The notes beneath the pieces are model-generated. The model was not told where the DNA came from. It saw nothing but the letters and a program-made list of their open reading frames with translations, and did not search any database. Of a stretch of DNA of 34,161 nt, positions 9,311 through 28,602 are shown in pieces. Both the position numbers and the translations under genes were made by a program. Position 1 is the stretch's first letter. Each line of letters begins with the position of its first letter. The DNA comes from Candidatus Uhrbacteria bacterium (GTDB lineage: Bacteria; Patescibacteriota; Patescibacteriia; JACQRZ01): contig JACQSB010000023.1 of the NCBI GenBank assembly GCA_016206175.1, positions 1 through 34,161 of the forward strand, in the 5' to 3' direction.

Positions 9311-11194
9311 CTACTGTTTTTCTTGTTCGGCCGCAAATTCTTTCTTTGCCGCTTCGATCTCGAGAAGTTGGCGCGGATCGGTCGTGATAAGCTGATCTTC
9401 CGAATACGATGCAACGATTTTAATGGCAACATGCTTTTGTCCCGCAAAAAATATCCCTTCACCGGGAGCGCTTTCCAGCAACAGATATTTTTCTCCTTCT
9501 GTCAGCATGAAGGTCTTTTGTACGAGATCGATAGCTGCAGGCGACTGCTTCAATAGTAGCTGCAATGACGAGTTCGTCAAGATCGCTTTCCCGTACTGTG
9601 AATTCAAAAAATCGTTCACGTCTTGGGTGATGGTGGTCAACCCAAGATAATATTTACGGCATCGCTTTGCCAGCGCGAAGACAAACCGAGCCGAATCTTC
9701 ATGCTGCATGAGCCACCATGCCTCATCGATCACGAGGATACGCCTTTTCACCTGCGAACGCACGACGTTCCAAATATAATTTACAATCGTATAGATAGCC
9801 ATCGGACGCAGCTCATCTTCCAAATCGCGTACCGAAAAAACAACAAGCTGGTTGCGCATCTCGACATTAGTCGGATGGTTCAATAGGCCCGAAAACGTTC
9901 CTTCGGTATATTTCTTGAGTCGCTCCACAAGAGTTCCGGTACCCACCATTCCTTCGAGTACGTCTTGCAGATCTTGCAGGGTCGGCGCTTGCGCGGTGGC
10001 AAGATCGGTCTGCGCGGTAATATCTTTTTTCGCATATGATTCGATCAGAGCCCGATCAACGATCGAATCTTCTTCCGGATTCAAATTGCCAAGCATGAGG
10101 CGCATCAATCCTTTCAATGTGATGACAGCACTCCTGATAACATCGGCGGTAGATACCTGCTCGCCGACCGGACGCGGCAGATCAAACGGGTTGATGCGGC
10201 TGGCAGATGCCAGTGAGATGTTGATATAGGTCCCTCCGACTGCCTCGCACAAATGCTGATACTCTTTTTCCGGGTCAATCACGATGACATCCGCGCCCAT
10301 CATCATCGTGCGCAGAACTTCAAGTTTGATGGCATAAGATTTACCCGCGCCCGAAGTGGCAAAAACCACAGAGTTGGCGTTCTGCAGAGAAAATCGGTCA
10401 AATAAAATCAAACTGTTGTTGTGGCGATTGATGCCGTACAGGATCCCTTTTTCCGAGGTCAGGTCAGAAGAGATAAACGGAAAACTTGCCGCGGCTGGAG
10501 ACGTGTTCATATTAAATCCGATCTCCAGTTCATCGAGACCGAGCGGCAAGGTGGAGTTAAACCCCTGCTCCGCCTGGTAGAACACTCGCTTGGTGTATAC
10601 AAGTTTTGTTCCAAATATCGCTTCGATGTCTTCTGTCAATTTGTCCAGTTTTTCCACGGAATCAGAATACAATGTGACGTATAATCCCAGTGAAAAAAAA
10701 TGCTCCGTGCCCTGCGTGAGATCATCACGCAGCTTCTCCATATCTTTGAGCGCGGTCTCGGCTGCCGGGTCGCGCGGCTTGCCGTGCTCTTGCGCCATGG
10801 AAATCTCTGCCTCTACGCGCCCGACCTTGTCTCGAAGCTGTTTGAGCACTGCCTGCACCGGCATGGGGTGCAAAAAAATCGAGATATCGAACGATGCGCT
10901 ATAGTTAATGATCGGCGCAAACCACCCGACAAAAATATACCGTGGGTAGCCAAGCACAAATAACGTACGCGCGAATTTCGAGCCGATGCGGATATAGCTT
11001 GACTGCGCCTCAAATGATGATGGGGAAATGATGTCACGCAGGGAAACCGTACCTTTACGGTAGTGGATCTCCTGTTCGAGCACCTCTTTTTCGAGCTGCA
11101 GTTTTTTCTGCTCTTCGAGCGCTTTGCGCTGCGCGACCGTCACCCGCTTTGGCGCTACTTTGCCTGTTTGTTTTACTTTCGGCTTGAATGCCAT
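9311..11194 (-). CDS. virB4: VirB4/TraC-family T4SS ATPase
   Basis: Walker A FATSGAGKSYAIKLE; VIVIDPEKEYQHL; Walker B RRILVIDEAWWLMQ; TTITQDVNDFL. Confidence 0.95.
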   Translation of the reverse strand: MAFKPKVKQTGKVAPKRVTVAQRKALEEQKKLQLEKEVLEQEIHYRKGTVSLRDIISPSSFEAQSSYIRIGSKFARTLFVLGYPRYIFVGWFAPIINYSASFDISIFLHPMPVQAVLKQLRDKVGRVEAEISMAQEHGKPRDPAAETALKDMEKLRDDLTQGTEHFFSLGLYVTLYSDSVEKLDKLTEDIEAIFGTKLVYTKRVFYQAEQGFNSTLPLGLDELEIGFNMNTSPAAASFPFISSDLTSEKGILYGINRHNNSLILFDRFSLQNANSVVFATSGAGKSYAIKLEVLRTMMMGADVIVIDPEKEYQHLCEAVGGTYINISLASASRINPFDLPRPVGEQVSTADVIRSAVITLKGLMRLMLGNLNPEEDSIVDRALIESYAKKDITAQTDLATAQAPTLQDLQDVLEGMVGTGTLVERLKKYTEGTFSGLLNHPTNVEMRNQLVVFSVRDLEDELRPMAIYTIVNYIWNVVRSQVKRRILVIDEAWWLMQHEDSARFVFALAKRCRKYYLGLTTITQDVNDFLNSQYGKAILTNSSLQLLLKQSPAAIDLVQKTFMLTEGEKYLLLESAPGEGIFFAGQKHVAIKIVASYSEDQLITTDPRQLLEIEAAKKEFAAEQEKQ

Positions 11195-11199
11195 AGGCG

Positions 11200-11907
11200 T
11201 TAGAATGTATCCTCAACCTGCAATTTATTGACCTCCACCATCTTTTCCTGCGGTGAGGTATCGGGGTTATAAAGGTTATAAAAAACTTCGATCAAACTTT
11301 GAGTATCAAGCCGGACGGCATTCAAACCCATCCCCAACAAACCAGCCGTGACATTATCGACACGCTGGTCGAGGAAGTGTTTGCGTTCCATAAACTGCTC
11401 CTGTCCGAGGAGAATGTCAGCCGGCGCGGAAAACATAGAACCGACGCGCGCAAAAAAACCACGTTTGGTGTCTCCGGCGGGATCATACGGAATGACAAGA
11501 AAAAACTTCTTATCCATGATATCTCCCAGACTCACAAGCTCTCCGATAAACTGACGGTAGTCTGCCATTTGCAGCTTAAGCAGATCATTTGTCTGTGCCG
11601 CTTCGAGCTTTTGGAGTTCTGCGATGTACTTCGACGGGTCAAACTGACGGGATTGGATGACAATCTGCACAGGGTAATCAAACGCGTTGAGAAAAGAAGT
11701 ATACGATTGGATTACCCCTTTTTGTTCATCATCTGATTTGAGGAAGAAATTGATTGATGAGATAAGTAGCACCGCGCGCAACGTACCGTCCTTCATGAGG
11801 ACTGTGTCATTACGGATTTCGCGCAACGCCAAATACCGACTCGTGGACGGCGTTCCTTTCCCTGCTTTCACATACGCTTCTTTTGTTTTTTTTGCTTTCT
11901 TTGCCAT
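11200..11907 (-). CDS. TraC-like / VirB4 N-terminal-domain-like protein encoded separately upstream of virB4
   Basis: ALREIRNDTVLMKDGTLRAVLLISSINFFLKSDDEQ...FDYPVQIVIQSRQFDPSKYI resembles VirB4/TraC N-terminal domains; six-nt gap to virB4. Confidence 0.7.
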   Translation of the reverse strand: MAKKAKKTKEAYVKAGKGTPSTSRYLALREIRNDTVLMKDGTLRAVLLISSINFFLKSDDEQKGVIQSYTSFLNAFDYPVQIVIQSRQFDPSKYIAELQKLEAAQTNDLLKLQMADYRQFIGELVSLGDIMDKKFFLVIPYDPAGDTKRGFFARVGSMFSAPADILLGQEQFMERKHFLDQRVDNVTAGLLGMGLNAVRLDTQSLIEVFYNLYNPDTSPQEKMVEVNKLQVEDTF

Positions 11908-12045: not shown

Positions 12046-12531
12046 TTAAAACAACTCTGTACCCTCTTCCTCATCCTCCGGACGATACGCGCCTCCCGTA
12101 TCCACCTGCAATGCCAGTTCGCTTAACCGCTGTTCACTGACTCGCTCTTTGGGCGTGGCTGTATATTTGCCCTTTGCCACTTTGGCAGCCTCGGTTGTTT
12201 TCTGGCGTTCTTTGTGCAACGTGCGGATCATGGTGATATCTGATCTTGTAACGTCCTTTTTCCATACGCGTACGCTTGGATTACGCATGGTTTGAACGAT
12301 ATTGAAAAGAAAAAAATGCACGGGCCTGCCGTTTACCTTGAGAAATGCAAGCACTCCTGAAAGAATGAGGATGAGCAGAGCCACAAAGATAAAAACCAAA
12401 AAATCAAAAACCTTGAATGCAACAAAGATCAGTACCCCACCGGTAAACAAAATCCCAAACTGCCGTACGGTGATCGGGCCGAGAATCTTGTCTTCGCTTT
12501 CAATAAATTGCGGGACGGTGATCTGTTCCAT
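12046..12531 (-). CDS. PrgI family (VirB3-like) membrane protein
   Basis: Start MEQITVPQFIESEDKILGPITVRQF, followed by a TM pair, is characteristic of PrgI-family proteins in CPR/Gram-positive T4SS loci. Confidence 0.88.
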   Translation of the reverse strand: MEQITVPQFIESEDKILGPITVRQFGILFTGGVLIFVAFKVFDFLVFIFVALLILILSGVLAFLKVNGRPVHFFLFNIVQTMRNPSVRVWKKDVTRSDITMIRTLHKERQKTTEAAKVAKGKYTATPKERVSEQRLSELALQVDTGGAYRPEDEEEGTELF

Positions 12532-12534
12532 AAA

Positions 12535-14715
12535 CTATACACGGATATTCTCATTCAAATCCAATAACGCTTCAAATTCTTCCGTCGTAAGATATGGTTT
12601 ACCTTCGCTCTTCCGTTTCTCAATGACATCGCTCATCTTGAGGCCTGCGCCGAAGCTCTCTTTGCCAATGTCGCGGTAGAGCTGGGATACTTCATTTTCT
12701 TTCCATGCTTCAATGCCCGCCATTTTCTTGGTATAGGAATCTTTTTCCAACAGCTGGATTTTTGTCGTCACTTTCGCGGCAGCCTCGACAGGGTTTGGTG
12801 AGAGGCGGCGAAAATCCTTGATCGTCATCGCGCGCAATTCCCCAACGGCATCCAAGAGGCGCGGCGGAGCTTTCACATCTGATATCGGCACCTTACCAAC
12901 GGTAGAGCCGGGGCGAACTTGCACGGGAATCTTCTGCGCGCCTTTCATTGCGGGCGGCGGAGGTGCTGGGGATGGTTGCTGAGCAGAAGCAGGGATCCAT
13001 TTCGGCTTCTGCTCCTCTATCACCACTGGCACGCCGTTCTCGTCTTCTTTAATTGCCAGAGATGGTGGTGGTGGTGTGGATTCGACAGTATTGTCATTCC
13101 CCTTCGCTTCATCCACCTTCGCTCCCGCTTCGGCGGATTGCGGTCGGGATGACACTATTGAAGGCTGGACATCACTCGGAATGACGTCTTTCCCTGATTC
13201 CTGATTCCTGATTCCTGATTCACTCTTGATTCCGTCCAGCACCTTCTCCGCATCCGCCGACGACAATCCAATCCCTCCTTCTGCAACCGCATCCATGAGC
13301 CGCAATTTTGTCTGGGTATCATTACGCACATTGCGCAAACGTGTGACGATGACCGTCTTGAGGCGAGATACGATGTCAGGAGACAACGTAAACCCACACT
13401 GCACAATGATATCTCCCGCGCTTTTTTCATAATCTTTTGGAGGCATACGTGATGATATGTTAGTGTCATTTCGAGACGGAGCCGTAATAGCACTGTCATT
13501 CCCGACGTCCCACGTAGCGGGACGATCGGGAATCCCGTGAGAGGTCACCGATGCTGCCGAGTCGGAGGCGAGGCTATCGGAGACGGGTTTCTTCTTCCCG
13601 GAAACAGATCCCTTCGCTTCATCCACCTTCGCTCCCGCTTCGGCGGATTGCGGTCGGGATGACACTATTGAAGGCTGGACATCACTCGGAATGACAGAAG
13701 AAGGTACGGGGGTTGCCGCTGCCTGACGAGGTGATGCCTTCGATACGAGAAGCTCTGAAAGTAATGCCTTAGAAGGCTGTGCGCCATTCAAAACTTCATC
13801 GGGCGGAAACGTGGGAGCAGCCACACCGCCGGGGATCTTGACCGGATCATAAGGGATTATCATCCATTGTTCCGGCGGTATCTTTGTCAAGCTATCGGGA
13901 AAATGCCGCAAGGTATAATACGTCTCGAAAAGCCGTTTGAGTGTTTCCCGCTCCTTTTCTGTCAATTTTCTCGCATTAGGACTTTGGCTGATATACTTCG
14001 CGATAGAAAGAGAAGTCACCTCGTCAGGACTGCTAAACGCATGAAGATCGCGAATCCATTCTGTGGCGAGCGGCTCATATCGCGCGTTATCCCGCACGAT
14101 TTTTTCCGCGCCGACTGTTTCCTTGTTATCCAGCATCTCGCCGATAAGCTCGAGATGATAACCTGACTTCTTTGCAAGGAGGTCAAAAATCAATCCATTC
14201 AGAGCAATTTTATAATTATCATCTGGCGAGGCATGCAGATCAACGATCTGCTCGCGAAATATTTTTTTTACATTCAACGCTTCCTGGTCATAATCCACTG
14301 TCTCTAGCGCTCGCAAGCGCGGCGCGATAATCTCCTGCTGTAATCGCAAGATGACAGGCAGAGTCTTACTCGCATTGACATCATCCTGTGTGCCGATAGT
14401 GGAAAAAAAATATTCCTGCCGGTCACCGAAGTGATCACCGAGTGGCAAGATGAGATTGACAAATATCTCCTTAATCAGTTGTTTCGTGGTTTTATCATCG
14501 CATTTCACTCGTGAAAGGATGGCATCCTGCAGAGCTTCAACAGTAAGACGTTTCTCAAAAAGATCGGCAATGAGCTTGACCAATTCCGCATCCTGCTCAT
14601 CTGCAAGATGATACTTTTCATGTAGGGAAAATAAGAACTCAAAATACTCCTCCGAAAGAATAAATTCTCTGATGTGTTCCGGCAGATTGTCGAGCTCAAC
14701 TGAAAAAGCTTGCAT
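12535..14715 (-). CDS. Large cytoplasmic protein of unknown function, T4SS-locus associated; central low-complexity linker invaded by repeats
   Basis: 726-aa ORF, no TM; folded-looking N-terminal ~300 aa, disordered Pro/Ser/Ala-rich centre with repeated VIPSDVQPSIVSSRPQSAEAGAKVDEAKG, helical C-terminus. Confidence 0.8.
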   Translation of the reverse strand: MQAFSVELDNLPEHIREFILSEEYFEFLFSLHEKYHLADEQDAELVKLIADLFEKRLTVEALQDAILSRVKCDDKTTKQLIKEIFVNLILPLGDHFGDRQEYFFSTIGTQDDVNASKTLPVILRLQQEIIAPRLRALETVDYDQEALNVKKIFREQIVDLHASPDDNYKIALNGLIFDLLAKKSGYHLELIGEMLDNKETVGAEKIVRDNARYEPLATEWIRDLHAFSSPDEVTSLSIAKYISQSPNARKLTEKERETLKRLFETYYTLRHFPDSLTKIPPEQWMIIPYDPVKIPGGVAAPTFPPDEVLNGAQPSKALLSELLVSKASPRQAAATPVPSSVIPSDVQPSIVSSRPQSAEAGAKVDEAKGSVSGKKKPVSDSLASDSAASVTSHGIPDRPATWDVGNDSAITAPSRNDTNISSRMPPKDYEKSAGDIIVQCGFTLSPDIVSRLKTVIVTRLRNVRNDTQTKLRLMDAVAEGGIGLSSADAEKVLDGIKSESGIRNQESGKDVIPSDVQPSIVSSRPQSAEAGAKVDEAKGNDNTVESTPPPPSLAIKEDENGVPVVIEEQKPKWIPASAQQPSPAPPPPAMKGAQKIPVQVRPGSTVGKVPISDVKAPPRLLDAVGELRAMTIKDFRRLSPNPVEAAAKVTTKIQLLEKDSYTKKMAGIEAWKENEVSQLYRDIGKESFGAGLKMSDVIEKRKSEGKPYLTTEEFEALLDLNENIRV
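13100..13185. repeat. 86-bp repeat, copy A
   Basis: cccttcgcttcatccacc...ggacatcactcggaatgac, identical to 13610-13695. Copy A is bounded by the 8-bp inverted termini GTCATTCC/GGAATGAC. Confidence 0.93.
13194..13221. repeat. Tandem heptanucleotide repeat (CTGATTC)x4 (minus strand GAATCAG)
   Basis: ctgattcctgattcctgattcctgattc read directly inside the 726-aa ORF. Confidence 0.95.
13498..13533. repeat. REP-like palindrome ATTCCCGA-CGTCCC-loop-GGGACG-A-TCGGGAAT
   Basis: attcccgacgtcccacgtagcgggacgatcgggaat; near-perfect inverted repeat inside the ORF. Confidence 0.88.
13610..13695. repeat. 86-bp repeat, copy B
   Basis: Identical to 13100-13185; offset 510 bp, so both copies are read in the same frame. 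Confidence 0.93.
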
Positions 14716-14727
14716 AAAATAAATAGA

Positions 14728-17700
14728 TTAGAACCTATCCTGACCCCAGCGAAACCTGCGCCACAGCGAGTTATCTTCCATTGCATTTTGCATTGCTTCT
14801 CTGAATTTCTTTTTTGCTTCACCCTTCAAGTCTTTTTTAATTTGATTTATTCTCTCTTGGTCTATTTGTATTGATCCAACATTATCTTCCGTAATACCAA
14901 TTTCGGCAGCAATGGTTGGATTTGATTCTAGCAGTACTTCAGCAAATACAGGTTTTTCAAGCGTGGCAATAACACCCTCTGAAATATTACCCATATTCGC
15001 CTTACCTCTGTCGGCAAGTGCCGTCGACATATTACGGAGGGCGGCTGCCACTTGAGTAGCCATCGGATTGCCTCCCTCTGCCGGAGAGATTGTTGGATCA
15101 AGCATTTTGGTAATTATCTCCATCACTTCGCTGTCTTTATGAGACATCATTGCGTTATGCATGGTCAAAGCAAAATACGGAGCAATATCGTCATCCTTCA
15201 TAGCTTCTTCTAAAGCAGCTTTATTAAAAGCTATTTCCGCATCAGTACCTTGAAATTTTCCATCACTGCTGATATTTAAAAATTCCGGATTATCAATATA
15301 ACCACGCGTTAATCCGATAGTTTTCATCATATGTATGAAATCCTTCATCTCTGGCTTTGATGCGTCGAAATCATTTCCCAAACTTTCTCTCATTCTCTTT
15401 GTTTCTTTCATGGCTTCATATTGCATGCGATTTTCCACAACAGGATCACCTTTCATTTGCGAAAGATACTTTGCAGAAACATTATTCCCGAGGCGCTCAC
15501 CAAGATGATTGATTGCGCGTAATAATTCTCCATTGATGGCATCAGCTCGGGATAGATCTTTCAGATTCACACGGTTCTTCTCCAGAAGAAGCGCCAATTG
15601 CGGAGCAGTCATGCCGTATGCCACCGAGGGATATTTGTTGAATACATCATAATCAAATGCTTCCATGGCAGCGGACCGCGCACCGCGTTCGGCAAACTGC
15701 CGTCGTGCGACTCCCACTTCTTCAGCTGTGTAGAGATTTCGCTTAATCATTTCGCGCTGCGCTCCCATCTGCTCCAACTTGGAATAGCCTTTCACTGCTC
15801 CGTTTGCTATCGCTTTCACAACTTCATCTCGAAGGCCGCCGAAATGTTTTTGAGATGCTTGGATCGCTTCCATCTGAATATCATCAACTTCGCGCATAAG
15901 GCGCCTCCCAAATCCGTTCATCGAGTCTGCCATGTCCGGAGCAAACGGCGCCATCATGCCTAATCCTGCAGCCCATGGCGCTATTGGCGCTCCGGCAAAC
16001 GCGAGCAGACCAGCAGAAAGCCCCTTTGTTACCCCGAGAACAATGTCTGGGGCAGCGGAAAGCGCCCTCCATCCAACTTGTTGGAGTTCCTTTCCTTGCG
16101 CTGCCAATTTGTATTTATCCGATTCTTTATCAAATTCGAGCGCTTTGTGCCTGTATTCTTCTGCTCTACGTTTTCTTTCCTCTGGGTCAGTAATAGCCTT
16201 ATCATCATCGAGTTCAGAGATGAGTGTTTTCACGTATTCTATAGATTTTTCGCGTCTCGCCTTTTCAGCTGGCGACTCATCTTCCGGCTCTTCTTCGAGT
16301 TTTTCGAGTTGCTCTTTCAGAAGATGTTGTTTTGCCTCGATATCTTCTTTTTTCATCAATACGCGACGCGCTCGTTCGCGATTATTTTCCGCTTTTTGAG
16401 ATGCTTCACCTGCTTTGTTTTTTTCTTCCTGAACATCGCCCATGATTCGGTCGAGCTTCTCGCCGATTACTTGCTTCGGTTTCGTATAAATTTTATCCCA
16501 TGACTTTCGAATAAAATCTGCGGCTGGCTTTGTTCTTTCCGACGTCATAAAAGTGCGCCATGCCGCATCTTTCAGCGCACCTCCGGCGGCTGCGATCATG
16601 GCAGGAGGCTTTGCAAGCAACATAAGATCTTGCTTTGCCTTCTCCGACCGCTCGTGTTCGCGCATTTTCGAATACGCGCTCCATCGATCGCGCGCCCAGC
16701 GCATGGGAGAAGGACCTTTCTTGCCTGCAACATAATCCTTTGCTCCCTGCACGACGGAACCTGCCATCTTGCCGCCTTCCACGCCGAGCTGCTGGGCTAC
16801 TGCCATACTGCCGAGAAGCATCACAATGCCCAAGAAAAAGCCAAGCGTGGTCTGTGGCGTGCCGATCGCCGTTCCCAGCTTGTTTGGTATCGGCGTAGTG
16901 GCAGTTGGGCTGACGGAGCTGATGGTGCGACCGATCTGCGGCGCGTTATTCGCACCCGCGCCACTGCTTGACGCCAATGTCGTAAAAGAAAGCCATAGGA
17001 AAAACAGCATGATCGGCCCCACGATCAGATAGTTGACAAACTGATCCCACCATTTCTTCGCGTATCCTTTATCGTCCGGCAGTGCGGAAAGGAAAAATGC
17101 CGCTGGCGAGAGCACGACGAGAAACCAAAGCGCCACGATGCGGAATATCAGGATAAACAGCATCACCACAACCACGATAAGGGCAATCACGGTAAACGCG
17201 AGGAGAATGACAAGCGATAAAAGGGTTTCCCACACTCCGACCGCGGACGTTCCTGGCTGGGCGACGTAATTTTGGAACTCATGCAATCCGGTGATCGCCA
17301 AAAAATTACCGCCGGCGGTATTTTCTATCGCGCCGGTAAAGGTGAGCATCACGACATTGGCAAAATCAATAAATATGCCCGCGATGGTTTTTGAAAAATT
17401 AATCATGATCGCCGCGATGATAAACTTCGGCAGCGTTTTTGAATAATGGTATTTTTCCTGCTGGAGGATCGTGCCCACGGCAATGGCAAGCAGGACGATC
17501 ACGAAAAACATATTCATCACATCACGCACGATCTCCCACCCGCGCGTCACCGGAATAGAGTCGATAAAACCGGTGTAACGGGAGACATCGATGATGAGAT
17601 ATACCACATTGATGAATAACCCGTTGAGGGCATCGATAACCATGCTCAATATCCATCCGAGACCGGAAAGCATCTGGTCTCTCGCGATGAAAGCGGCAAG

Positions 17701-17865
17701 TGCTCCGCCTGCTGCCGCTCCTAATCCGATAAGCAGCGGAATCGCCGCCTCTGCCGGACGTGGCGCAAACAATACCCCTGCCACAATAAACAGTAGCGCA
17801 ACGGCAATCGCGCCTGTGCGCCACCGCCACTGCGTGCGGAGATATGTTGTGATCAGAGTGAGCAT
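14728..17865 (-). CDS. VirB6/TrbL-like polytopic membrane protein with long hydrophilic C-terminal extension
   Basis: Multiple TM segments in first ~375 aa (WILSMVIDALNGLFINVVYLIIDV, VMNMFFVIVLLAIAVGTIL, VALWFLVVLSPAAFFLSALP, LIVGPIMLFFLWLSF), then ~670 aa charged/helical tail. Confidence 0.82.
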   Translation of the reverse strand: MLTLITTYLRTQWRWRTGAIAVALLFIVAGVLFAPRPAEAAIPLLIGLGAAAGGALAAFIARDQMLSGLGWILSMVIDALNGLFINVVYLIIDVSRYTGFIDSIPVTRGWEIVRDVMNMFFVIVLLAIAVGTILQQEKYHYSKTLPKFIIAAIMINFSKTIAGIFIDFANVVMLTFTGAIENTAGGNFLAITGLHEFQNYVAQPGTSAVGVWETLLSLVILLAFTVIALIVVVVMLFILIFRIVALWFLVVLSPAAFFLSALPDDKGYAKKWWDQFVNYLIVGPIMLFFLWLSFTTLASSSGAGANNAPQIGRTISSVSPTATTPIPNKLGTAIGTPQTTLGFFLGIVMLLGSMAVAQQLGVEGGKMAGSVVQGAKDYVAGKKGPSPMRWARDRWSAYSKMREHERSEKAKQDLMLLAKPPAMIAAAGGALKDAAWRTFMTSERTKPAADFIRKSWDKIYTKPKQVIGEKLDRIMGDVQEEKNKAGEASQKAENNRERARRVLMKKEDIEAKQHLLKEQLEKLEEEPEDESPAEKARREKSIEYVKTLISELDDDKAITDPEERKRRAEEYRHKALEFDKESDKYKLAAQGKELQQVGWRALSAAPDIVLGVTKGLSAGLLAFAGAPIAPWAAGLGMMAPFAPDMADSMNGFGRRLMREVDDIQMEAIQASQKHFGGLRDEVVKAIANGAVKGYSKLEQMGAQREMIKRNLYTAEEVGVARRQFAERGARSAAMEAFDYDVFNKYPSVAYGMTAPQLALLLEKNRVNLKDLSRADAINGELLRAINHLGERLGNNVSAKYLSQMKGDPVVENRMQYEAMKETKRMRESLGNDFDASKPEMKDFIHMMKTIGLTRGYIDNPEFLNISSDGKFQGTDAEIAFNKAALEEAMKDDDIAPYFALTMHNAMMSHKDSEVMEIITKMLDPTISPAEGGNPMATQVAAALRNMSTALADRGKANMGNISEGVIATLEKPVFAEVLLESNPTIAAEIGITEDNVGSIQIDQERINQIKKDLKGEAKKKFREAMQNAMEDNSLWRRFRWGQDRF

Positions 17866-17927: not shown

Positions 17928-20900
17928 TCAAAAAGGACAGCGGATAGCGCCGCTGCTAATGGCGTTGTCATCGACGCCGGTATGCGCAGCGCCGCTGCCA
18001 AACGAACAGTTGCCTTTTACGGTTGGTGGCCATTTTGTTGAGTCTATGTCCGTGGCTGTGTAGTCAGCGCCGCGTTTCACCTCAAAACTCGGTATCGCAA
18101 GATCGCCATTCGCTTGCTTTACAATCTTTCCGCACACAGCGGATTTTGCTTCCCAGTTATCCATTGCATAGATACAGATCGTCTTGCCTACCGGAGTATC
18201 GCGGTACATATGGCCAAGGCCAAAGGGTTGATTCTCGGGCGCGTTGCTGTAATCTGAAGATCCCTCACGATCACCCTTGCCGGTGCCTTCTATATTACTA
18301 TCTACAATCACACTGCGATTCGATACATAATCGCCCCAATCTACGATAAGTTTGCGTAAGGGAAGTTGGGCATTGCTTGTGGCATCAATGAAAAACTTAA
18401 TGTCGACTTTCTGGTAAATGCCCCTCTTATTGTGGATCAAAGTAAATGTATCTGCGGCATCACGCTTATAGTAGTCTGCTGTTGAGGATGCTGTAGCTCG
18501 ATAAAACGTGGGGCGATTTGCTTGAGCGCCACTTCTGGCATCGGACCACATTGTCTCAAGTGATGATTTATCCGCCGCTGATTCTGCTATCCAATGTCCG
18601 TTATTGGTATTTACATCGTAACTTCGAGTATTTTTGTTATAGACTGTGCTGGTTGCATAGGTCGATCCTCCCCATTCTCGCCATTTTTCATAGATTTTCC
18701 CGAATATTGTAGTCCGAAGGTCAGGGTTGATGGGCGTGATACTGTCCTTTAGCTGTGGGAAGGCGCGAACAAAGCCGGGTGTCGTGATAGTTGTGGGAGC
18801 AGCTGTGACGGCACTCAATGTATCCGCGGTGATCGTATCATTGCTATTACGGACCGCACGGCTTAGATCGCAGCCAGAGACGACGCCGCAGGCAAAATTT
18901 TTAGTGTAATCCAGCGCTTCTGGATATTTATTTAGATAAGTGCCGGCGCTGCCTGTAGGCGTTGTGTACCATGTATCGCCTTCCCATGTCTGTATTTTCG
19001 GCTCGAAGTAAAGCCGGGTGTTTTGTTTGTCAGGAGTGTCGATAAGGTATGTTTTTCCTTCATAAGTGAAGAAACTCCCCGACTGAGATCCTAATTGCCC
19101 TCTTGACTTGAGATAGTGCGCGATAGCTTCACTGTCAGTGCCAGTCGGTCGCACGAGCTCGGAACAATAATCGCCGTAGATATTTTTTCCTTTGTAGAAA
19201 TGGGTTGAGGTATAAGGTTTGAATTTGATCTTGATACTTACAGCGATCGTTTCGGCGTCAGAGCTAGTGGAATCATCGCAATATTTCCACCTCCAACCCT
19301 TTAAACGATTTGTCGTGGTATCTATTTCTGGTCCAATGGCAACAAAATTCTTACCGTCACCGCAGCCGTGACCGAAGAAACTCTCGGCATTCCATGTGGT
19401 TCCGCCGCTACACAACGCATCATTACTCTGTCCTCTCGGACCGCTCACTCTACACCTTCTTCCTTCCCTATTAGCCGGGTTTTCATCAAAATAGAAAGCT
19501 ACAGGACCCTTGACGTTATCCTGCCAATTATAAAGTGTGGTTCCATTTTTCCATACATCGCTTGCAAGACCTGCGCTTTTATTATAGTAAGTACGGTAAT
19601 TATCGTTAGCCGGATCTCCTGAATGCTTATCCCACATCAAAGCTATGAAGTTACTTGTACTGCCGGAGTAAATAGAATTACCGCCGGCCTTTCCCTGTCC
19701 TGTAAAAAAATCTTCAAACTCGTCTCTCCTTGCCCCTTCAATTGTATATTCGATTCCTGATATCGCATCCATGATAAGTCCGTTTCCGTTGAGTTTTTCA
19801 TCGCTATTTAATTCCACAAATCCCTTAACATCTGGGCTATTATTCGTTGTAGCATACAATATGGTACCAGCAGAAACTCCCAAACAAGCAGGGATTAAAC
19901 TTGTACCAACAAGAGGTACAAAAGATAACCCGCATGTAGCGGCGGAGGTTATGCCACCAAATACTATCCAGCCAACGCTTTTTTCAGTAGTTGTGATAAC
20001 TATATTACGACTCGTGGCACTATTCCCTGCATTATCAATAGTTTCAAGTCTACTGCCTGATTTTTTCAATCCCGACGAATTGCGCGTTTGAACATACGTT
20101 TTATCATGGTTCCCGGTGAAGCCAACATCTTCATAGATATAATGCGTTGCAGTTGTCGCAGCTTGAGTATCAAACACGGGCGATATGCCGCCATCTTGTT
20201 TGTTGATGCAGAGATAGATGTTGTTTGCCGTTCCTTCGTATGCTTTGATGTCGGCTCCGACACTCGCCCCCGCGCCGCTGGTGGTTTGCGCCGCGAGCTT
20301 ATCGCTCGGATACCACAGGAGGCACGAATTGCGGTAAGAGTTGTAGGCATAGCTGCCGTCTGCCACTCTATACCCGCCGTGAATGGTTGCGATGGCCGCA
20401 TCTGTTGATGTAGCGAGTTGGTCATTTACTCTATACAAAGTTTTTGGATCTGTGCCCGGCCCTACCCACTGTTGTTTGAATTGCGTAGCAAACTTCGGAT
20501 ACGGCTCAAGGCAGTACCCATACAGGCCGATATTCCATGTATCGCCTTCCGACCCTGCTGATTTATAATTACACGCGTCATTCCACTTGCCCATCTGTTG
20601 TTCGGGCGCGTTGGTTGATGGATACAGGCGGCACGAGTTTGCCACTTTGTAGGGGCCAAGATGTAACTCGTTTTGGAGTTTACTGCTATCTGAATCATCT
20701 ATACTAACGCTACTCCCTACTTGCACTGACCAGTCAAAGAAGCTATCGCGGTGAAGCACGCTCTGCGCTTGCAGGGTCTGTCCGGCAGCGAAGCGCATTG
20801 CCGGCCGCGCGTAGCCGGAAAGCATGCTGAAGTTCAAGTTGAGATCCGCCGTTGTTGCTGCAGAAGTCTGAATGGAAGGCGCGTCAAACGCGGCGACCAA

Positions 20901-23900
20901 CGACGCGGTGTCTTTGGCGCGGCAACCGCCTCCCGGCAACGGATCCCAAAAACAGTCAATGTTTGCGTTGCAGGTATCTTCTACTGTCTGTCGATTGCAA
21001 AAATTATTGAGCTGCACAAAATACGGCGCGTCGGCTTGTTTAAGGCATGTGCCGCCGCCGCAACCGGAATCACCCGTGCATCGTTTGGATGCGTCATTTG
21101 AACACACGCCGACTTCCACGCATCGTGCGCCCGCCGCTGTACCGACCACGCCCCTGCAGTCGGCATCCACGCCACAACCGGAAAGCGGGTTGCTTCCCTC
21201 GCACGCTTTGCGCGCGGAAAACCCGATACTCGCACATCCGCCGAATTCATTAGTGATCAGGCACGGCAGGCGTTGCGTGCATTGCGCGCTGCCGCCACTC
21301 GCTTGTTCTTCGGAGCATACGAGCGGAGTGCTGCACTCGCGGTCGAGCTTGGCTTTGAGAAGCACGTTGGCATCTTTGACATTCGCGCCGTACTGCGGCG
21401 GCGAGGATGTGCTGCTATACATCGAGGTACCATTGTTTGTATCCGCCTGATTGATTGTGATCGCACGCTTTGAGTTGTTGTACGCTTCATAATAATACTT
21501 CGAGTTGTATTTCAGATCCGGCGCGTCTTGATTCGTACTGCGGAACAGTACACAGCCATTTTCCGGATCCAGCTGATTACGGCATTCTTGTGCTCCCGTA
21601 TTTTCCGCTGACTTGACATAGTAATATTTTGTCCTGCACGCAGTGCCCGGTTCTCCTTTCCGCGGATTAAATCGACCGTAGTCTGTGATCAACGTCCCTT
21701 TCAATCCTGTGGGGTCAGAATCGGCGCAGTACTCATTGCCAGCGCCACAGGGACGGCAGTCAGTATCTTCGTACTCGGTACAGCCACTGACTTTGGCGCT
21801 GCACTGCTTGGCGTACGATACCGGACCAGACGTAATCCAATATGCTTTCGCATCCGCATCTTGTAACGGATTAATGGATGGGCTTGTAGTAGCATTAAAA
21901 GCAGGTCCCACCGGCTTATTGGCAGCAGTCACGTTGCCATATTTGTCTTTTTCCAGTTCGCAGCTGATATACGAGTCGCATTTTTCAGTGTAGATAGGCA
22001 CTTTGCCATCGGAGCGCGGATATTTGCCATTGAGTCCTGCGCAATCCGCATCGGTGCGGCAAGAAATATATGGGTAATCAAGCGCATTCATGTAGGTGGC
22101 GTTGAGCAGATTGTCCGATATCTTACCGCATGATTTGTAAAACCATCCGCCACTGCTGCCTTCCGGCCTTACCGGCTGGCCTTTTGCGCCTGCTGGAGTT
22201 GTGTCAAAAAATTGACACACATTTTTACCTGGATCCTTAAAGTATCGTTTTGATGCTGCCGTATCGTATGCTTTGCATCCGACTTCTTCTTGCTTGCAGA
22301 TCCCCGATTGATAGGCATTTGGATCAGTAGAGCTTGCGGCGATCATCTCGGGAGTGATCTTAAAATACAGTGTCTGCCATTGTTCCTTCCTGCTCGTTGT
22401 CGAGTATTGTGACTGGATATCTTCGGTTGTCGTAGCAGTGCTGCCTGATGTGTCTATGCCTTCCTGAATAGCTTTGGGAAAGCCGTACGCCGTACAATTG
22501 TTATTCACAGAATTGCACCGCGCTTTTGGATCGTCGACAAGAGTTAATACGCTTGCAGACAGGGTAAAATTCTTACACCCCACAAACGCGGCAGGGCAGA
22601 CATTTTGAAATCCGTAATACGCCACGCGATTATTATTCCCATCCACATACGGCCGTCCTGTGCGATCATTATAGAATTGGCAGCCAGTCTGATAGATGTC
22701 ATCAGATTCATCGGCCGTGGTGGTGCTGCCGGCGGTACGGCATACGGCTGGGCGCGCTTCTTCAGAAGAAATAGACGTATCGATCGCGTATACCGTCTTG
22801 CCCGATGCTTCTTTTAAATAAATGTTGTCGACATAGACGGCATTATTTACGCCGGAACCAAGGCTGCTTGCGCTTCCTTTGGAAAATACCAGTGAGAGCG
22901 TGGAAGTCGCGGTGGAAAACGTAGGAGAGCTTGTCGCCGTAAAGGTGATATACTGCCAGCCCGACGTGGTAAACGTATGGGTGCCGAGACTCTGGTCTAT
23001 CCCGCCAGCAAGGTCTTTGAGTGTCGCGGTAAGAGTATTTTGTGTCGCGGCACGGGCAGTGAGCGTAAAGGTGTAAGTATAATCGTTCTGTATGGTGACG
23101 CCTTTTTGCGCTTCGTATGAAGTCGGGGTGCCGGATTTTTTCTGCAGGCGCATGCTCCTGCCGCCGACGTTTTCTGACTCCAGCGAAGTGTCTGCCGTAT
23201 AGTCGGTCGTGCCTTCCGGCAGCTGCCAGCCAGCCACGCCCTGCGATTGGTCAAACGCATCGCGCACTACCAACTTATAGTTGCCTGCTTGTGTGGATAT
23301 ATATGTGCGGCATCCTTTGTACTGTGGCGCGCACTGTCTGCTCATGCCGGTGCTGTAAGTATACTCCTGTTGATCTTGCGAGCGGCGGTATTGCGTACAG
23401 TCATCAGTCTGATAGACAAGCTTATCGACAAGACGGTAAGACACGGTGCCATTCGCGGAGATAAATTCACGGCAGGCAGGCGGTCCGGAGGTATTGTAGT
23501 ATTGCTGGGTAAGAATCGCATCATCGCATACGACTGTATTGCCCGCAACCGCAATCGTGCTTGTTCCTGTACAGGTGTAGCCTGCTACGCAGTCCGGCAC
23601 GTTTGTATTGGTACCGTTTGGTTTGAGGGAATACGGCATGGGCTGCCTGCCACCCTGCTCGGAGCCAAAATAACTGTAAAATACCGTGCGCTCATTGGTG
23701 GGTTTTTGTTCACACGAAATTGTGTTGGTAAAATACGTCCGCGCTTCCGCGCCCGTGCGTTCTTGCGCCAGGTTTGTAAATTCTTCACATCCCGAGGCTT
23801 GCGCATTGCAGCTCTGCACTGCGGATGCCTTAAACGCATAAAACGCCGTTGACGCGGTAGGGTTGAAAAGGCTGGGCTGCAACAGATAATTTTCCAGCCC

Positions 23901-26783
23901 CACACATTGTCCGCTTACGCAGACAAGCGGCGTAGTCGCAGTCACCGGAGACTCAAATCTGCTTTCTGGTTGATAAAGCTGGCATCCGACAGCGTCAGCC
24001 GTGCAATGCAGGGCATACCGCTGACATTCGCCTCGCTGCCACGCGTCCGGTTCATCGCACTTAAGATATTTCGGCGCGATCTTTAAGTAATTGCCGTCCC
24101 CGAGATCGCGGCAACCTTCAAACTCGGCAGAACATTGTTCTGCCTTATAAGAAAGAAATACGCGATCGGTGCTTGATGCCGTCCATTCTTGCGCGGTTGT
24201 AAATGTTGAGCCGTCAGGGTGCCCCTCTCGGATCGTGCCGCAGAGAGCGGCTTTTGCTTGATAACTCGCGGTTTTCCAACTTGTATCTTCGAGATTTGTA
24301 GTTGTCGCGCTTGGATCAGTCCATAACACTTGCAAAGTTTTATTCTCCAACAGTTGCCGCTTGTTCACGTATTTGACATTGCCATTCCCTGCATCCTCCT
24401 TTATCTCGACTTTCAGCAGGCACGTCTCATACTGCCGACGTGCGGTTGAGAGCCAGCTGCAGCCAGCGTTATCCGCTTTGCATACGTTTGTGTTTGGGGT
24501 GTCGGCAAAGGTGATCGCGGGCAAGCTGTCTTTCAGGAAAAATTGCGTTTTGGCATTCTTGCCATCGCGACCGAGCTCGGTAAACGTATCACAGCTGCTA
24601 AATGCCCTCTTACATTGCGTTCCGCTAATCTGAAATACTTTTTTCTCTTCCACGCAGTAGCCGTAATCATCATTGCTGATAGATTTTTCCGCGCGCTCCC
24701 AGTCTTGCGGCGTGCCCTCATGGAGCCATGTGCGTTCGTCAAGGCACACCTCCGGACGAAATACCGGATCTTGCTCTTGCGTCGTGCCGGGCTTTAATGC
24801 CGCCGGACCGTATCCTTTCAACTCGCAACGCACTTGCGGGAGCTTCAAAACCCAGTTTGGATCTACGAGACGATAGAAGGGGCTTGATTTATTATCAAAA
24901 TTATTCACGAGGTCTTGCAGGGTGCAGTCGCGATTGTCGCAGGGACCTCCATCTTGATCTTGCGAATGGTCACGAATATAGAGAGCGGCGAGCTCCCATG
25001 CCACCGGCAGAATACGGTACTTGCGCATCACAACCATGGAGTCATACGGATAGTTGATTTTGTAATCGATCGGCTGCACCGGCTTATCCGATGTTGAGCG
25101 GCTGGTAAACCCGAATACACCGAGCGGATTCATGCCGATGTTGCCGCCGGACTCACGGTATTTCTTCATTGCCTCACCCACGGTCAGGCGGTCTTGGATG
25201 GCGCGGCCTGTGGCAGAGCCTAGGGTACAAGCATTGGGAAACGTATTGCAGTCTTGTATCTGCATTTCAGAAAGCACTTGCAGCATATCGCCGCTCGTAG
25301 TCTTGACTATTGCCAATTGCGCGCTACGGCGGGCAATGACTTCTTGTGGCGCAAAGTTCTGCGGGGCGGCATCGGGATTGTAAATGACACTAGAACTTAC
25401 CGGTGGCGAGACAAATTCTCCACCCTCACCAACCTCCACGCCTCCCTCCGCGAGCTGGGCATTTACTTCGTTTGCTTTCTTTCGCAGGCCATCAAAATAT
25501 AATTTTGTGGTGTTGCCGATGAGCGTACTCACAAAGGTATACACAAGATCGGCGGCATCCACGACCGCTTTGCCGGTCAGTCGCTTGCCGACGTCACTTT
25601 CCTCTTTGACCTGCTGTGTATACACCTGTTTGAGAAATGGCGCGGGAGTCATGATATTGCCCGCAACGTCTGCAACAGGCTTGAAGCCCTCTTGCTCGGC
25701 AAACCATCGTTTTATCATCTCCGAAACCTGCACCTGCTCTTGTTCCGCAATGATATTCTGGTGAATTGTCAATGCGACACCGATATTGCTCCGTCGAGGA
25801 TCAACGGCATCGGCAAGCGTCTGCCAGGGATTTTGCCCTGTCTGCTTCATAATATCTGAAATGGCAACACCGGTACCCTGAATCGCTCCTGTCCAATTCT
25901 GATATAATTGAGAAACTTTACAAACCGGCGGCTCAAGCTGTGTCCCCACTCCACCGAGCCCAAGGCCGATATTAAACTCAAGACCAAAATTCGGATTGCA
26001 CGCCCGGCGCAAGATTGAGGTGGCATTGGGGGAAAGAGCGCCTGCGCGGTTCTTCTGATATTTGAGAAAACGATCACCTTCGGAAGCATTAAATTGTCCG
26101 ATACGTTTTCTCACAGCAGAAGCTCTATCGTCTAATTGATCTGCTTGATTGCTTGCTTCTAACTGCTGATCATATTGCTGCCGCAAATCACCGCAGGCAT
26201 CCTTAGTGCTCCTCCCATCTTCTGTTCTCGACGCATTTGCTTCTTCATCTGTCATACCCCCGCTCACATACCGCTCACAATCAAACCCTTGCCAATCTCT
26301 GTCCAATTCGTCAGACCATTCGTCTGCTTGCTTGTGACTTTCATTTGCTAAATCGTCGTAACGTTTCGCATCCTTATCAAGATTTTTGATGCCCGCCTCG
26401 CTCGCGCGATTCATACTGTCAACCGTGAGGAAGTAACCTTCCGCGGCGCCGCCTGCCGCTTGATCTAAAACATCAATGCCAAATTGCATCCATGCGCGGT
26501 TATCCCACGCCGGCTGCCTTCCCACATACCCGCCGGTTGCAAAATCCATAAAGGCGTTGGAGGACGCTTCTGCCAATGTTTTGAGCGCGCCTTTCAAGCC
26601 AGTGTATAAAGCATTCTCCAGAATACCAAAACCAAGATCAACCCAAAAATTTTTCTCTGATACTGCATCAGCTACAGGCAATATTGCATCTGCGCGTTTG
26701 GGCGCACTCAACAAGAGTGCCGGTGTAAGAAATGCAACGGCAAGAAACGCGAGAATGGTTTTTTTGAGTGGCGAGAACGGCAT
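17928..26783 (-). CDS. Giant (2951 aa) secreted, Cys-rich modular surface protein, T4SS-locus associated
   Basis: Uninterrupted 8.9-kb ORF; signal peptide MPFSPLKKTILAFLAVAFLTPALLLSAPKRADA; nine C-x5-(G/S)-C motifs; jelly-roll-like segment ending NAVYVDNIYLKEA; PKD-like C-terminal segment. Confidence 0.92.
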   Translation of the reverse strand: MPFSPLKKTILAFLAVAFLTPALLLSAPKRADAILPVADAVSEKNFWVDLGFGILENALYTGLKGALKTLAEASSNAFMDFATGGYVGRQPAWDNRAWMQFGIDVLDQAAGGAAEGYFLTVDSMNRASEAGIKNLDKDAKRYDDLANESHKQADEWSDELDRDWQGFDCERYVSGGMTDEEANASRTEDGRSTKDACGDLRQQYDQQLEASNQADQLDDRASAVRKRIGQFNASEGDRFLKYQKNRAGALSPNATSILRRACNPNFGLEFNIGLGLGGVGTQLEPPVCKVSQLYQNWTGAIQGTGVAISDIMKQTGQNPWQTLADAVDPRRSNIGVALTIHQNIIAEQEQVQVSEMIKRWFAEQEGFKPVADVAGNIMTPAPFLKQVYTQQVKEESDVGKRLTGKAVVDAADLVYTFVSTLIGNTTKLYFDGLRKKANEVNAQLAEGGVEVGEGGEFVSPPVSSSVIYNPDAAPQNFAPQEVIARRSAQLAIVKTTSGDMLQVLSEMQIQDCNTFPNACTLGSATGRAIQDRLTVGEAMKKYRESGGNIGMNPLGVFGFTSRSTSDKPVQPIDYKINYPYDSMVVMRKYRILPVAWELAALYIRDHSQDQDGGPCDNRDCTLQDLVNNFDNKSSPFYRLVDPNWVLKLPQVRCELKGYGPAALKPGTTQEQDPVFRPEVCLDERTWLHEGTPQDWERAEKSISNDDYGYCVEEKKVFQISGTQCKRAFSSCDTFTELGRDGKNAKTQFFLKDSLPAITFADTPNTNVCKADNAGCSWLSTARRQYETCLLKVEIKEDAGNGNVKYVNKRQLLENKTLQVLWTDPSATTTNLEDTSWKTASYQAKAALCGTIREGHPDGSTFTTAQEWTASSTDRVFLSYKAEQCSAEFEGCRDLGDGNYLKIAPKYLKCDEPDAWQRGECQRYALHCTADAVGCQLYQPESRFESPVTATTPLVCVSGQCVGLENYLLQPSLFNPTASTAFYAFKASAVQSCNAQASGCEEFTNLAQERTGAEARTYFTNTISCEQKPTNERTVFYSYFGSEQGGRQPMPYSLKPNGTNTNVPDCVAGYTCTGTSTIAVAGNTVVCDDAILTQQYYNTSGPPACREFISANGTVSYRLVDKLVYQTDDCTQYRRSQDQQEYTYSTGMSRQCAPQYKGCRTYISTQAGNYKLVVRDAFDQSQGVAGWQLPEGTTDYTADTSLESENVGGRSMRLQKKSGTPTSYEAQKGVTIQNDYTYTFTLTARAATQNTLTATLKDLAGGIDQSLGTHTFTTSGWQYITFTATSSPTFSTATSTLSLVFSKGSASSLGSGVNNAVYVDNIYLKEASGKTVYAIDTSISSEEARPAVCRTAGSTTTADESDDIYQTGCQFYNDRTGRPYVDGNNNRVAYYGFQNVCPAAFVGCKNFTLSASVLTLVDDPKARCNSVNNNCTAYGFPKAIQEGIDTSGSTATTTEDIQSQYSTTSRKEQWQTLYFKITPEMIAASSTDPNAYQSGICKQEEVGCKAYDTAASKRYFKDPGKNVCQFFDTTPAGAKGQPVRPEGSSGGWFYKSCGKISDNLLNATYMNALDYPYISCRTDADCAGLNGKYPRSDGKVPIYTEKCDSYISCELEKDKYGNVTAANKPVGPAFNATTSPSINPLQDADAKAYWITSGPVSYAKQCSAKVSGCTEYEDTDCRPCGAGNEYCADSDPTGLKGTLITDYGRFNPRKGEPGTACRTKYYYVKSAENTGAQECRNQLDPENGCVLFRSTNQDAPDLKYNSKYYYEAYNNSKRAITINQADTNNGTSMYSSTSSPPQYGANVKDANVLLKAKLDRECSTPLVCSEEQASGGSAQCTQRLPCLITNEFGGCASIGFSARKACEGSNPLSGCGVDADCRGVVGTAAGARCVEVGVCSNDASKRCTGDSGCGGGTCLKQADAPYFVQLNNFCNRQTVEDTCNANIDCFWDPLPGGGCRAKDTASLVAAFDAPSIQTSAATTADLNLNFSMLSGYARPAMRFAAGQTLQAQSVLHRDSFFDWSVQVGSSVSIDDSDSSKLQNELHLGPYKVANSCRLYPSTNAPEQQMGKWNDACNYKSAGSEGDTWNIGLYGYCLEPYPKFATQFKQQWVGPGTDPKTLYRVNDQLATSTDAAIATIHGGYRVADGSYAYNSYRNSCLLWYPSDKLAAQTTSGAGASVGADIKAYEGTANNIYLCINKQDGGISPVFDTQAATTATHYIYEDVGFTGNHDKTYVQTRNSSGLKKSGSRLETIDNAGNSATSRNIVITTTEKSVGWIVFGGITSAATCGLSFVPLVGTSLIPACLGVSAGTILYATTNNSPDVKGFVELNSDEKLNGNGLIMDAISGIEYTIEGARRDEFEDFFTGQGKAGGNSIYSGSTSNFIALMWDKHSGDPANDNYRTYYNKSAGLASDVWKNGTTLYNWQDNVKGPVAFYFDENPANREGRRCRVSGPRGQSNDALCSGGTTWNAESFFGHGCGDGKNFVAIGPEIDTTTNRLKGWRWKYCDDSTSSDAETIAVSIKIKFKPYTSTHFYKGKNIYGDYCSELVRPTGTDSEAIAHYLKSRGQLGSQSGSFFTYEGKTYLIDTPDKQNTRLYFEPKIQTWEGDTWYTTPTGSAGTYLNKYPEALDYTKNFACGVVSGCDLSRAVRNSNDTITADTLSAVTAAPTTITTPGFVRAFPQLKDSITPINPDLRTTIFGKIYEKWREWGGSTYATSTVYNKNTRSYDVNTNNGHWIAESAADKSSLETMWSDARSGAQANRPTFYRATASSTADYYKRDAADTFTLIHNKRGIYQKVDIKFFIDATSNAQLPLRKLIVDWGDYVSNRSVIVDSNIEGTGKGDREGSSDYSNAPENQPFGLGHMYRDTPVGKTICIYAMDNWEAKSAVCGKIVKQANGDLAIPSFEVKRGADYTATDIDSTKWPPTVKGNCSFGSGAAHTGVDDNAISSGAIRCPF

Positions 26784-26804: not shown

Positions 26805-27686
26805 TCATGGCTTATAATCCTTTACGGTTTGCATGAATACATCTTTGAGGGTCTTATCATCGATCGTTTTGAGCTGCTCTTCAGTTAGCGATCCGGATGA
26901 ACGGATAATGTTTCGGATTTCTTCAGGTGTGAATGATTCGGGATTTTTAAGTCGCTCCGGATCGATCTGAAGAGTAGAATTTTGCGCCTGGGTTTGCGCG
27001 TCGCTCGACGGTATCGCAAGCGGCTTGTCGCTCAATGCCTTTTCGCTGAAATCCTTATATGTCTTCTGGTACACCTCCATCAGGGCTTTGTCATCGATCT
27101 TCGCAAGGTCTTCTTTGCTTACTCCTTGCGAAGCAAGCAGCTCACGCACTTGATCAATGGAGAGAGATGCAAAATCTTCTATTGACCGCGGACCTTGCGG
27201 ACCAAAGATAGTTTTCAATGATTCCGGCATTGCGTTTGCTGATGCGGTAGCTGGTGTGCTTGTGCTCACGGAAAATGCCGATCCAAAACAACTTTTCCCC
27301 GAAGCGCAGTTTGGATCATGCCCTGTTTTTAACTCCTCATCATCGGTGTACCCATCGCTATCCGTATCTTTTAAGTACGGACTTGTCCGATAGGTGTAGA
27401 GCTCGTCGTAATCAGTGAGCCCGTCACCATCAGTATCAGAGCTTTTCAATAGAGCGATACTCGGCTCTCCCGACTCGATATCTGCGGCAACATATCCTTG
27501 GCTCGATGCATCAAAGCGAAACGGCTCTTTGATATTGTTCAAAATGATCACAATGCCAAACACAAAGGCGAGCCCCGCAAGAAAAATTGCAAAGCTTAAA
27601 ACCCCGTATGGCACTGCGCGGGGTTTTTCACGCGTATTGCTCTCTCGATCATAGTATCCATGCTCGGACATCTGCGTGAATTCCAT
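26805..27686 (-). CDS. Single-TM protein with thrombospondin type-3/EF-hand-type calcium-binding repeats and a duplicated helical C-terminal module
   Basis: TM YGVLSFAIFLAGLAFVFGIVIIL; DTDGDGLTDYDE and DTDSDGYTDDEE repeats; start taken at MEFTQMSEH (27686) rather than the track start 27743. Confidence 0.85.
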   Translation of the reverse strand: MEFTQMSEHGYYDRESNTREKPRAVPYGVLSFAIFLAGLAFVFGIVIILNNIKEPFRFDASSQGYVAADIESGEPSIALLKSSDTDGDGLTDYDELYTYRTSPYLKDTDSDGYTDDEELKTGHDPNCASGKSCFGSAFSVSTSTPATASANAMPESLKTIFGPQGPRSIEDFASLSIDQVRELLASQGVSKEDLAKIDDKALMEVYQKTYKDFSEKALSDKPLAIPSSDAQTQAQNSTLQIDPERLKNPESFTPEEIRNIIRSSGSLTEEQLKTIDDKTLKDVFMQTVKDYKP

Positions 27687-27699
27687 ATTTACCTTACAA

Positions 27700-28602
27700 T
27701 TATAGTACTCTCTCTTTGCAGTGTACAGTGGATAAGAGTGCAAGATCTATCCATTGTTGCACCGACAACTCTTGCGCGCGTGATGTCAAGGCGATGCCGA
27801 GACGAGCAAACGCAGCTTCTATTGTCACGCGAGGGATACCCAGCCCCTTAACAAGGTTGCTGATAAGCAACTTTCGCGGAGCCGCAAAACCCGTTTTAAC
27901 AACACGAGTATACATTGTTGCCTCATCGCTATCCGAATCGCGGCTTGCGTCCAGCACAATGCGGATCACTGCACTGTCAACCTTTGGGGCAGGATAAAAA
28001 CACGTACGCGCTACCATAAAAAAAATTCGTACTTCCCCATAGTATTGTGTAATGGCGGCAAGCAAGTTCATGCGGGGCGGTTTTGCGCAGATTCGCTGCG
28101 CGACTTCCTTCTGCACCATGAGTATCATGTCGCTCGGTCGCGGTTTTTCTTCTAAAAATTTTCTGATCAGCAGCGAAGTGATATTGTATGGGATATTGGC
28201 AACGACACGGTAGGAGAAATCATGTGTTTGCCTCGCCATACGGCTCGGCTGTACAGGTGATCCGCTGACGGGATCCCTCGACAAGCTCGGGATGACATGA
28301 AGAGGAAGCGTACGGATATCCTGTTGGATAATCTCGACATTCGGATGCTTCATTTGCAAATCTGCCAACAGCGGAATCAGCGTTTTGTCAATCTCGATCG
28401 CATATACCTTGCCTGCTTTTTGAGCAAGTTGCTCGGTAAGGATCCCTGAGCCGCTCCCAATCTCGACGATCGTGTCAGATGCCTGAATATCCGCTTGCGC
28501 GATAATTTTGCGTACGATATTTTGATCTACCAAAAAATTCTGCCCTCGCGAACGCTTAGGATCGATACCATGTTGCTTGAGGATCTGCAGAGGTGATGCC
28601 AT
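27700..28602 (-). CDS. rsmA: 16S rRNA (adenine(1518)-N(6)/adenine(1519)-N(6))-dimethyltransferase RsmA/KsgA
   Basis: HGIDPKRSRGQNFLVDQNIVRKI, VEIGSGSGILTEQL, VVANIPYNITS, FYPAPKVDSAVIR. Confidence 0.95.
   Translation of the reverse strand: MASPLQILKQHGIDPKRSRGQNFLVDQNIVRKIIAQADIQASDTIVEIGSGSGILTEQLAQKAGKVYAIEIDKTLIPLLADLQMKHPNVEIIQQDIRTLPLHVIPSLSRDPVSGSPVQPSRMARQTHDFSYRVVANIPYNITSLLIRKFLEEKPRPSDMILMVQKEVAQRICAKPPRMNLLAAITQYYGEVRIFFMVARTCFYPAPKVDSAVIRIVLDASRDSDSDEATMYTRVVKTGFAAPRKLLISNLVKGLGIPRVTIEAAFARLGIALTSRAQELSVQQWIDLALLSTVHCKERVL
28220..28301. repeat. REP/RPE-like insert inside rsmA (core ggatccctcgacaagctcgggatgac at 28271-28296)
   Basis: Encodes HVIPSLSRDPVSGSPVQPSRMARQTHD immediately before the conserved FSYRVVANIPYNIT; absent from the RsmA consensus as I know it. 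Confidence 0.7.

Follow-up and report, generated by a model that had tools for sequence, protein, structure and literature searches.

Type IV secretion systems (T4SS) are essential in the one patescibacterium tested, a saccharibacterium that requires its system for epibiotic growth (PMC10633639). The window analysed here (the whole stretch of 34,161 nucleotides, which is the entire contig C19 of a Candidatus Uhrbacteria genome of 934 kb and 77% completeness) carries a T4SS gene cluster in which a gene for a giant secreted cysteine-rich protein is embedded. The bacterium itself is tiny and probably lives attached to other microbes. Does the giant belong to the machine and, if so, as which part of it? 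The reading we favour, with a probability of about 0.6, is that it represents an enlarged extracellular subunit of the patescibacterial T4SS in the class ABY1, with its N-terminal domain (ND) docked at the machine and its tail contacting the host.

A giant secreted protein of modular make-up

A preliminary description, prepared from the letters alone, had reported an uninterrupted open reading frame of 2951 aa at positions 17928..26783, and these figures are exact; the strand, which it did not give, is minus (ATG start), and all window coordinates below refer to that strand unless stated otherwise. The plus strand over the same interval is stop-rich and not open. That the 8.9-kb frame is a real gene is borne out by relatives that a translated search recovered from 54 of the 57 class genomes, spread over 46 families; a frame kept open and conserved to this extent is far beyond chance. 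The protein is Cys-rich, as had been proposed, with 92 cysteines (3.1%, versus 0.8% in the other proteins of the window). Its signal peptide (26685..26783; residues 1-33) likewise stands, comprising a hydrophobic stretch at residues 8-26 followed by RADA|ILP, with the AxA site at ADA|ILP; the motif alanines A31 and A33 are kept in 65% and 63% of relatives, respectively.

Following the signal peptide, we distinguish the helical ND (25446..26651; residues 45-446), with invariant Cys262 and Cys288; the most conserved core (24384..25286; residues 500-800), marked by RKYRIxPVxWELAA ... DPNWVLKxP; a first Cys-rich modular region (23280..24827; residues 653-1168), in which a CxxxxxGC motif is repeated; a jelly roll resembling carbohydrate-binding modules of the CBM4/9 type (22905..23273; residues 1171-1293); and a second Cys-rich modular region (21534..22766; residues 1340-1750). 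A hinge at about residues 1685-1757 (21513..21731) is where the gene is divided in some relatives. The C-terminal half (17931..21530; residues 1752-2951) is less conserved and forms a separate membrane-anchored protein in the split relatives; it includes a β domain with conserved Cys that resembles a PKD/Ig fold (18081..18530; residues 2752-2901), the fold being named from its motif and not significant in the fold search.

The domain-wise AlphaFold modelling that had been suggested gave a divided answer. For residues 1-1165 the mean pLDDT was 64, with confident stretches at ~500-650 and ~960-1165, and the model is nearly all helix up to residue ~500, in line with the helical N-terminal part anticipated. 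The model of residues 1752-2951 (pLDDT 47) was too poor for use; the expected β-rich C-terminus is supported only in part, by the confident stretch ~2752-2901, which is β. Neither model matched the PDB at E<=0.001 in a fold search, and no known T4SS fold was recognised; the fold predicted for residues ~500-650 is novel-looking.

Searches of the whole giant against Pfam, NCBIfam and PDB profiles returned nothing but the CBM4/9 match, which at 20.8 bits falls under the curated Pfam cut-off of 25.9. Among relatives, Pfam (E<=0.01) recognised CBM4/9-like jelly rolls in 9 of the 38 N-terminal regions and in 3 of the 39 C-terminal ones, and a PDB profile search also found such modules. Some of the jelly rolls have E below 1e-6; in many relatives they are absent or sub-threshold. 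The modules in these several relatives make an adhesin role plausible.

A family confined to one class in the genomes searched

The named relatives of the giant come from Uhr-, Falkow-, Kerfeld-, Kuenen- and Buchananbacteria, which we take to constitute the class ABY1, and their frames are mostly 2,400-4,000 aa long. A profile of the core (residues 500-800) matched all 22 genomes of the class in a phylum-wide draw and none of the 265 genomes of other classes. Loci were searched for relatives with a profile built from 12 closer sequences. We found no description of the family in the open-licence literature.

Linkage to T4SS genes

Upstream of the giant gene lie those for an RsmA/KsgA rRNA methyltransferase (27700..28602) and for a membrane protein with TSP3 repeats of the calcium-binding type (26805..27743; Pfam TSP3_bac, 1.2e-6). 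Downstream follow genes for a VirB6-like polytopic membrane protein (14728..17865; weak match to NCBIfam conjugal membrane families), the 726-aa protein P726, conserved downstream of virB6 (12535..14715), a PrgI family (VirB3-like) protein (12046..12531; Pfam PrgI, 1.3e-7), a TrsD/VirB4 N-terminal-like protein (11200..11907) and a VirB4-like ATPase (9311..11194; CD1110 family, 2e-112). The two immediate neighbours are those that the preliminary description had named, and VirB4, TrsD, PrgI and VirB6-like genes are clustered as in a Patescibacteria-clade T4SS locus. Furthermore, comF, recG and radA lie near the T4SS, where the main text of a phylum-wide survey has them in ABY1 (PMC12102498).

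The order rsmA / TSP3 membrane protein / giant / virB6-like / P726 / prgI / trsD / virB4 recurs across the class. The TSP3 gene is found upstream of the giant in 68 of 71 loci (median gap 24 bp), and 39 of the 49 named loci with sufficient downstream sequence have virB6 following on the strand of the giant. Synteny was also tallied by hand, comparing genome-wide virB6 positions with translated-search matches of the giant: the two genes lie no more than ~15 kb from each other on one contig in 35 genomes, are clearly apart in three (G024, G031, G034) and are undecidable in 16 owing to a contig end, a tally that is slightly favourable because positives were counted whatever the extent of the contig. 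As the relatives are of common ancestry, these counts are not independent events, and the three exceptions imply that tight linkage is not obligatory. Homologues consistently unlinked to T4SS genes, which would have spoken against the proposed association, were not seen.

These exceptions, together with the TSP3 gene and rsmA neighbouring the giant more constantly than virB6 does, would suit an explanation in which the giant has no part in the machine but works on its own at the cell surface, as an adhesin or a coat protein, its gene merely sitting in the rsmA operon alongside those of the T4SS. Adhesion-type modules do occur in the family, and other Patescibacteria are known to have surface proteins of large size (PMC13059738). 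We nevertheless consider this explanation unlikely, since in G051 virB6 still adjoins the giant though virB4 has moved, and since ND alone adjoins virB6 in five independent genomes of other classes (see below).

Several further features of these loci were recorded. By eye, ORF6N/KilA-N-type regulator-like genes lie between giant and virB6 in L119, L133, L134, L140, L144, L148, L149 and L162, the last with three of them in succession; the intervening genes are unlike pilins, many being such regulators or short membrane proteins. In G043 the giant, virB6 and virB4 each occur twice, in opposite orientation on one contig (C2:645088-647814 and 692732-694879), reflecting either a duplication or an assembly artefact. 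The VirB4 proteins of three close relatives (in G001:C7, at L235:814-4695, and in G002:C9 and G009:C22) are interrupted in frame, precisely at the Walker A motif (SGAGKS|...VHN|SYAIK in G001), by ~660 aa that by sequence look like an intein; the VirB4 of the window is without it. At the edge of the contig and adjoining radA, a T4SS pilin-like domain (Pfam T4SS_pilin, 8e-7) is fused to a 3D-type domain (9.7e-5, slightly below cut-off; 3-776, plus strand). Promoter scans (21 matches versus 22.8 in shuffled sequences) performed no better than chance, and terminator scans (27 versus 21.3) little better.

The N-terminal domain beyond the class

Smaller secreted proteins fill the slot ahead of virB6 in other classes, and the one of G077 matched the N-terminal region of the giant. 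A profile of ND (residues 45-446 of the window protein, with the G077 protein included), searched in 380 genomes of the phylum irrespective of position, recovered the members of the class and yielded further matches from other classes in G265 (6.6e-21), G346 (6e-14), G169 (3e-8), G140 (1.7e-7) and G183 (1e-6). These stand-alone ND proteins look secreted and are 280-538 aa long; in each of the five independent cases the gene precedes virB6 immediately or at a distance of one gene. Within the class, G054 also has ND as a separate gene. Two Cys and one Pro are the sole residues invariant throughout the joint alignment, and no Pfam family matches ND convincingly. In the other classes, no more than 6 genomes of the draw yielded ND; in the remainder the slot holds proteins with no detectable similarity, or nothing. 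G078, which is outside the class too, encodes a secreted protein of 1959 aa and 27 Cys between the TSP3 gene and virB6 (L171:9696-15572, minus strand); similarity to the giant was not detectable.

The portion of the giant that is common to other classes thus appears to be the portion tied to virB6, and this is the main new point of our analysis; it also lends the T4SS association proposed in the preliminary description a footing beyond the recurrent gene order. Given the homology of ND to small virB6-adjacent secreted proteins, the giant most likely arose in ABY1 by fusion, when a pre-existing subunit, secreted and T4SS-linked, acquired a Cys-rich tail containing carbohydrate-binding-like modules.

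Probable cysteine pairing and divided genes

About 50 Cys positions of the giant are 95-100% conserved among aligned relatives, although column statistics are rough in the variable C-terminal half because all giants were aligned by a plain progressive method (MAFFT). The number of mature Cys (those after residue 40) is even in 65 of 71 distinct full-length relatives, which display 41 different totals between 68 and 190 (binomial p 7e-14, a value that ignores relatedness). Cuts placed anywhere between residues 20 and 60 leave 60-65 of 71 even, and removal of nothing gives 53 of 71; for comparison, counts are even in 32 of 57 cases for the cytoplasmic RsmA and in 17 of 32 for MFS proteins. The simplest reading of this parity is that all mature Cys pair in an oxidising compartment, so that essentially all of them would be disulfide-bonded outside the cell. 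The giant carries the sequence signature of an extracellular disulfide-bonded protein, namely a signal peptide together with conserved, even-numbered Cys; this agrees with the extracellular placement suggested earlier, and nothing pointing to a cytoplasmic location was seen, the location being deduced from sequence. The genome of the window encodes two proteins of the disulfide-forming VKOR type, which is present in just 16 of 30 class genomes tested.

These properties bear on the possibility that the T4SS, within whose cluster the gene sits, exports or injects the giant as a large cargo protein. We hold this to be very improbable: the Sec signal peptide has a conserved cleavage site, a disulfide-rich protein is unlikely to cross a T4SS folded, ND exists in other classes as a conserved small secreted protein, and no toxin or enzyme domain was convincingly found in Pfam and NCBIfam searches. 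The constant length class and the near-invariant Cys also suggest a rigid, conserved architecture, as might be expected if, instead of binding the host as an adhesin, the giant served the T4SS of a single-membrane cell as a structural element, be it an envelope-spanning scaffold or a stalk; according to the main text of the survey, such systems have virtually none of the outer-membrane core genes (PMC12102498). Carbohydrate-binding-like modules and a fast-evolving C-terminal half better suit contact with varying partners, however, and a purely structural role seems to us quite unlikely.

Six relatives (one of them recorded twice, as L066 and L112) have the gene in two pieces, with the break near residues 1685-1757. 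All six N-terminal halves have odd Cys counts (67, 63, 57, 57, 57 and 99), two of them being 5'-truncated ahead of the first conserved Cys; the two chains of L112 have 67 and 37 Cys. The complete C-terminal halves contain 37, 59, 35 and 57; the last of these (L061) becomes an exception, with 56, if one Cys in the membrane segment is left out. Every C-terminal half begins with a hydrophobic segment of its own. An interchain disulfide between the halves would explain the odd counts; as the splits perhaps stem from only one or two events, this is a lead and not proof. Between the halves, a membrane-anchored protein of ~220 aa that by eye resembles a cohesin module is encoded in two loci (L112:13318-13983 and L124:3938-4606).

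Proposed role of the giant

Returning to the extracellular-subunit reading, the giant would leave the cytoplasm by the Sec route, lose its signal peptide at ADA|ILP and become oxidised, with essentially all Cys entering disulfides, as parity and conservation suggest. ND, the T4SS-linked part common to other classes, would probably seat the protein at the membrane complex near VirB6 and the TSP3-repeat membrane protein, and the tail of ~2,500 residues (core, Cys-rich modules, carbohydrate-binding-like jelly rolls and the PKD/Ig-like domain) would reach outward, most likely gripping the host cell surface so that the machine can act on the host. Computation has established the frame, its signal peptide, the conservation across the class, the gene linkage, the homology and position of ND, the Cys pattern and the CBM-like modules. 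That the giant physically joins the T4SS, touches the host and binds glycans is what we infer here, co-localisation of genes being no proof of assembly. A more specific version, to which we give somewhat less than even odds, is that ND is an undescribed subunit of patescibacterial T4SS that in ABY1 has grown into a host-contact arm of ~3,000 residues stapled by disulfides, and that in some lineages this arm consists of two chains joined by an interchain disulfide, the second being membrane-anchored. The model predicts that every Cys is paired, that ND touches VirB6 or the TSP3 protein and that split halves are disulfide-joined. The family would thereby offer a defined, strong candidate for the host-touching T4SS part across a whole uncultivated class, and the stand-alone ND proteins a small minimal version of 280-350 aa, tractable for structural and interaction work.

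Comparison with known systems

With the MPF_FATA-type T4SS of the Patescibacteria clade, as presented in the main text of the phylum-wide survey (PMC12102498), the locus shares VirB4, TrsD, PrgI/VirB3 and VirB6-like genes in one cluster; that text mentions neither the giant nor ND, and reports that no adhesin was detected in Patescibacteria. Like the minor pilin VirB5/TraC (PF07996), ND is helical and secreted and its gene sits just ahead of virB6, but it differs in possessing an invariant Cys pair. PF07996 did not match the giant, its best match in the genome of the window being 0.064 on another contig, and hhalign gave ND a probability of 1.5% against a single VirB5 sequence. Several relatives share jelly-roll modules of the CBM4/9 kind (PF02018); in the giants, by contrast, these are inserted among Cys-rich modules without a recognised fold.

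Homology to TraN of F-type conjugation (PF06986) was rejected, the hhalign probabilities being 3.3% and 0.2% and a search of the window's own genome with PF06986 returning no match at E<=1, whereas the E. coli control matched. TraN is about one fifth of the length of the giant, and what the two share is being secreted, Cys-rich and T4SS-linked, with a possible role in cell-cell contact. The functional parallel with TraN that the preliminary description had tentatively drawn is an analogy only.
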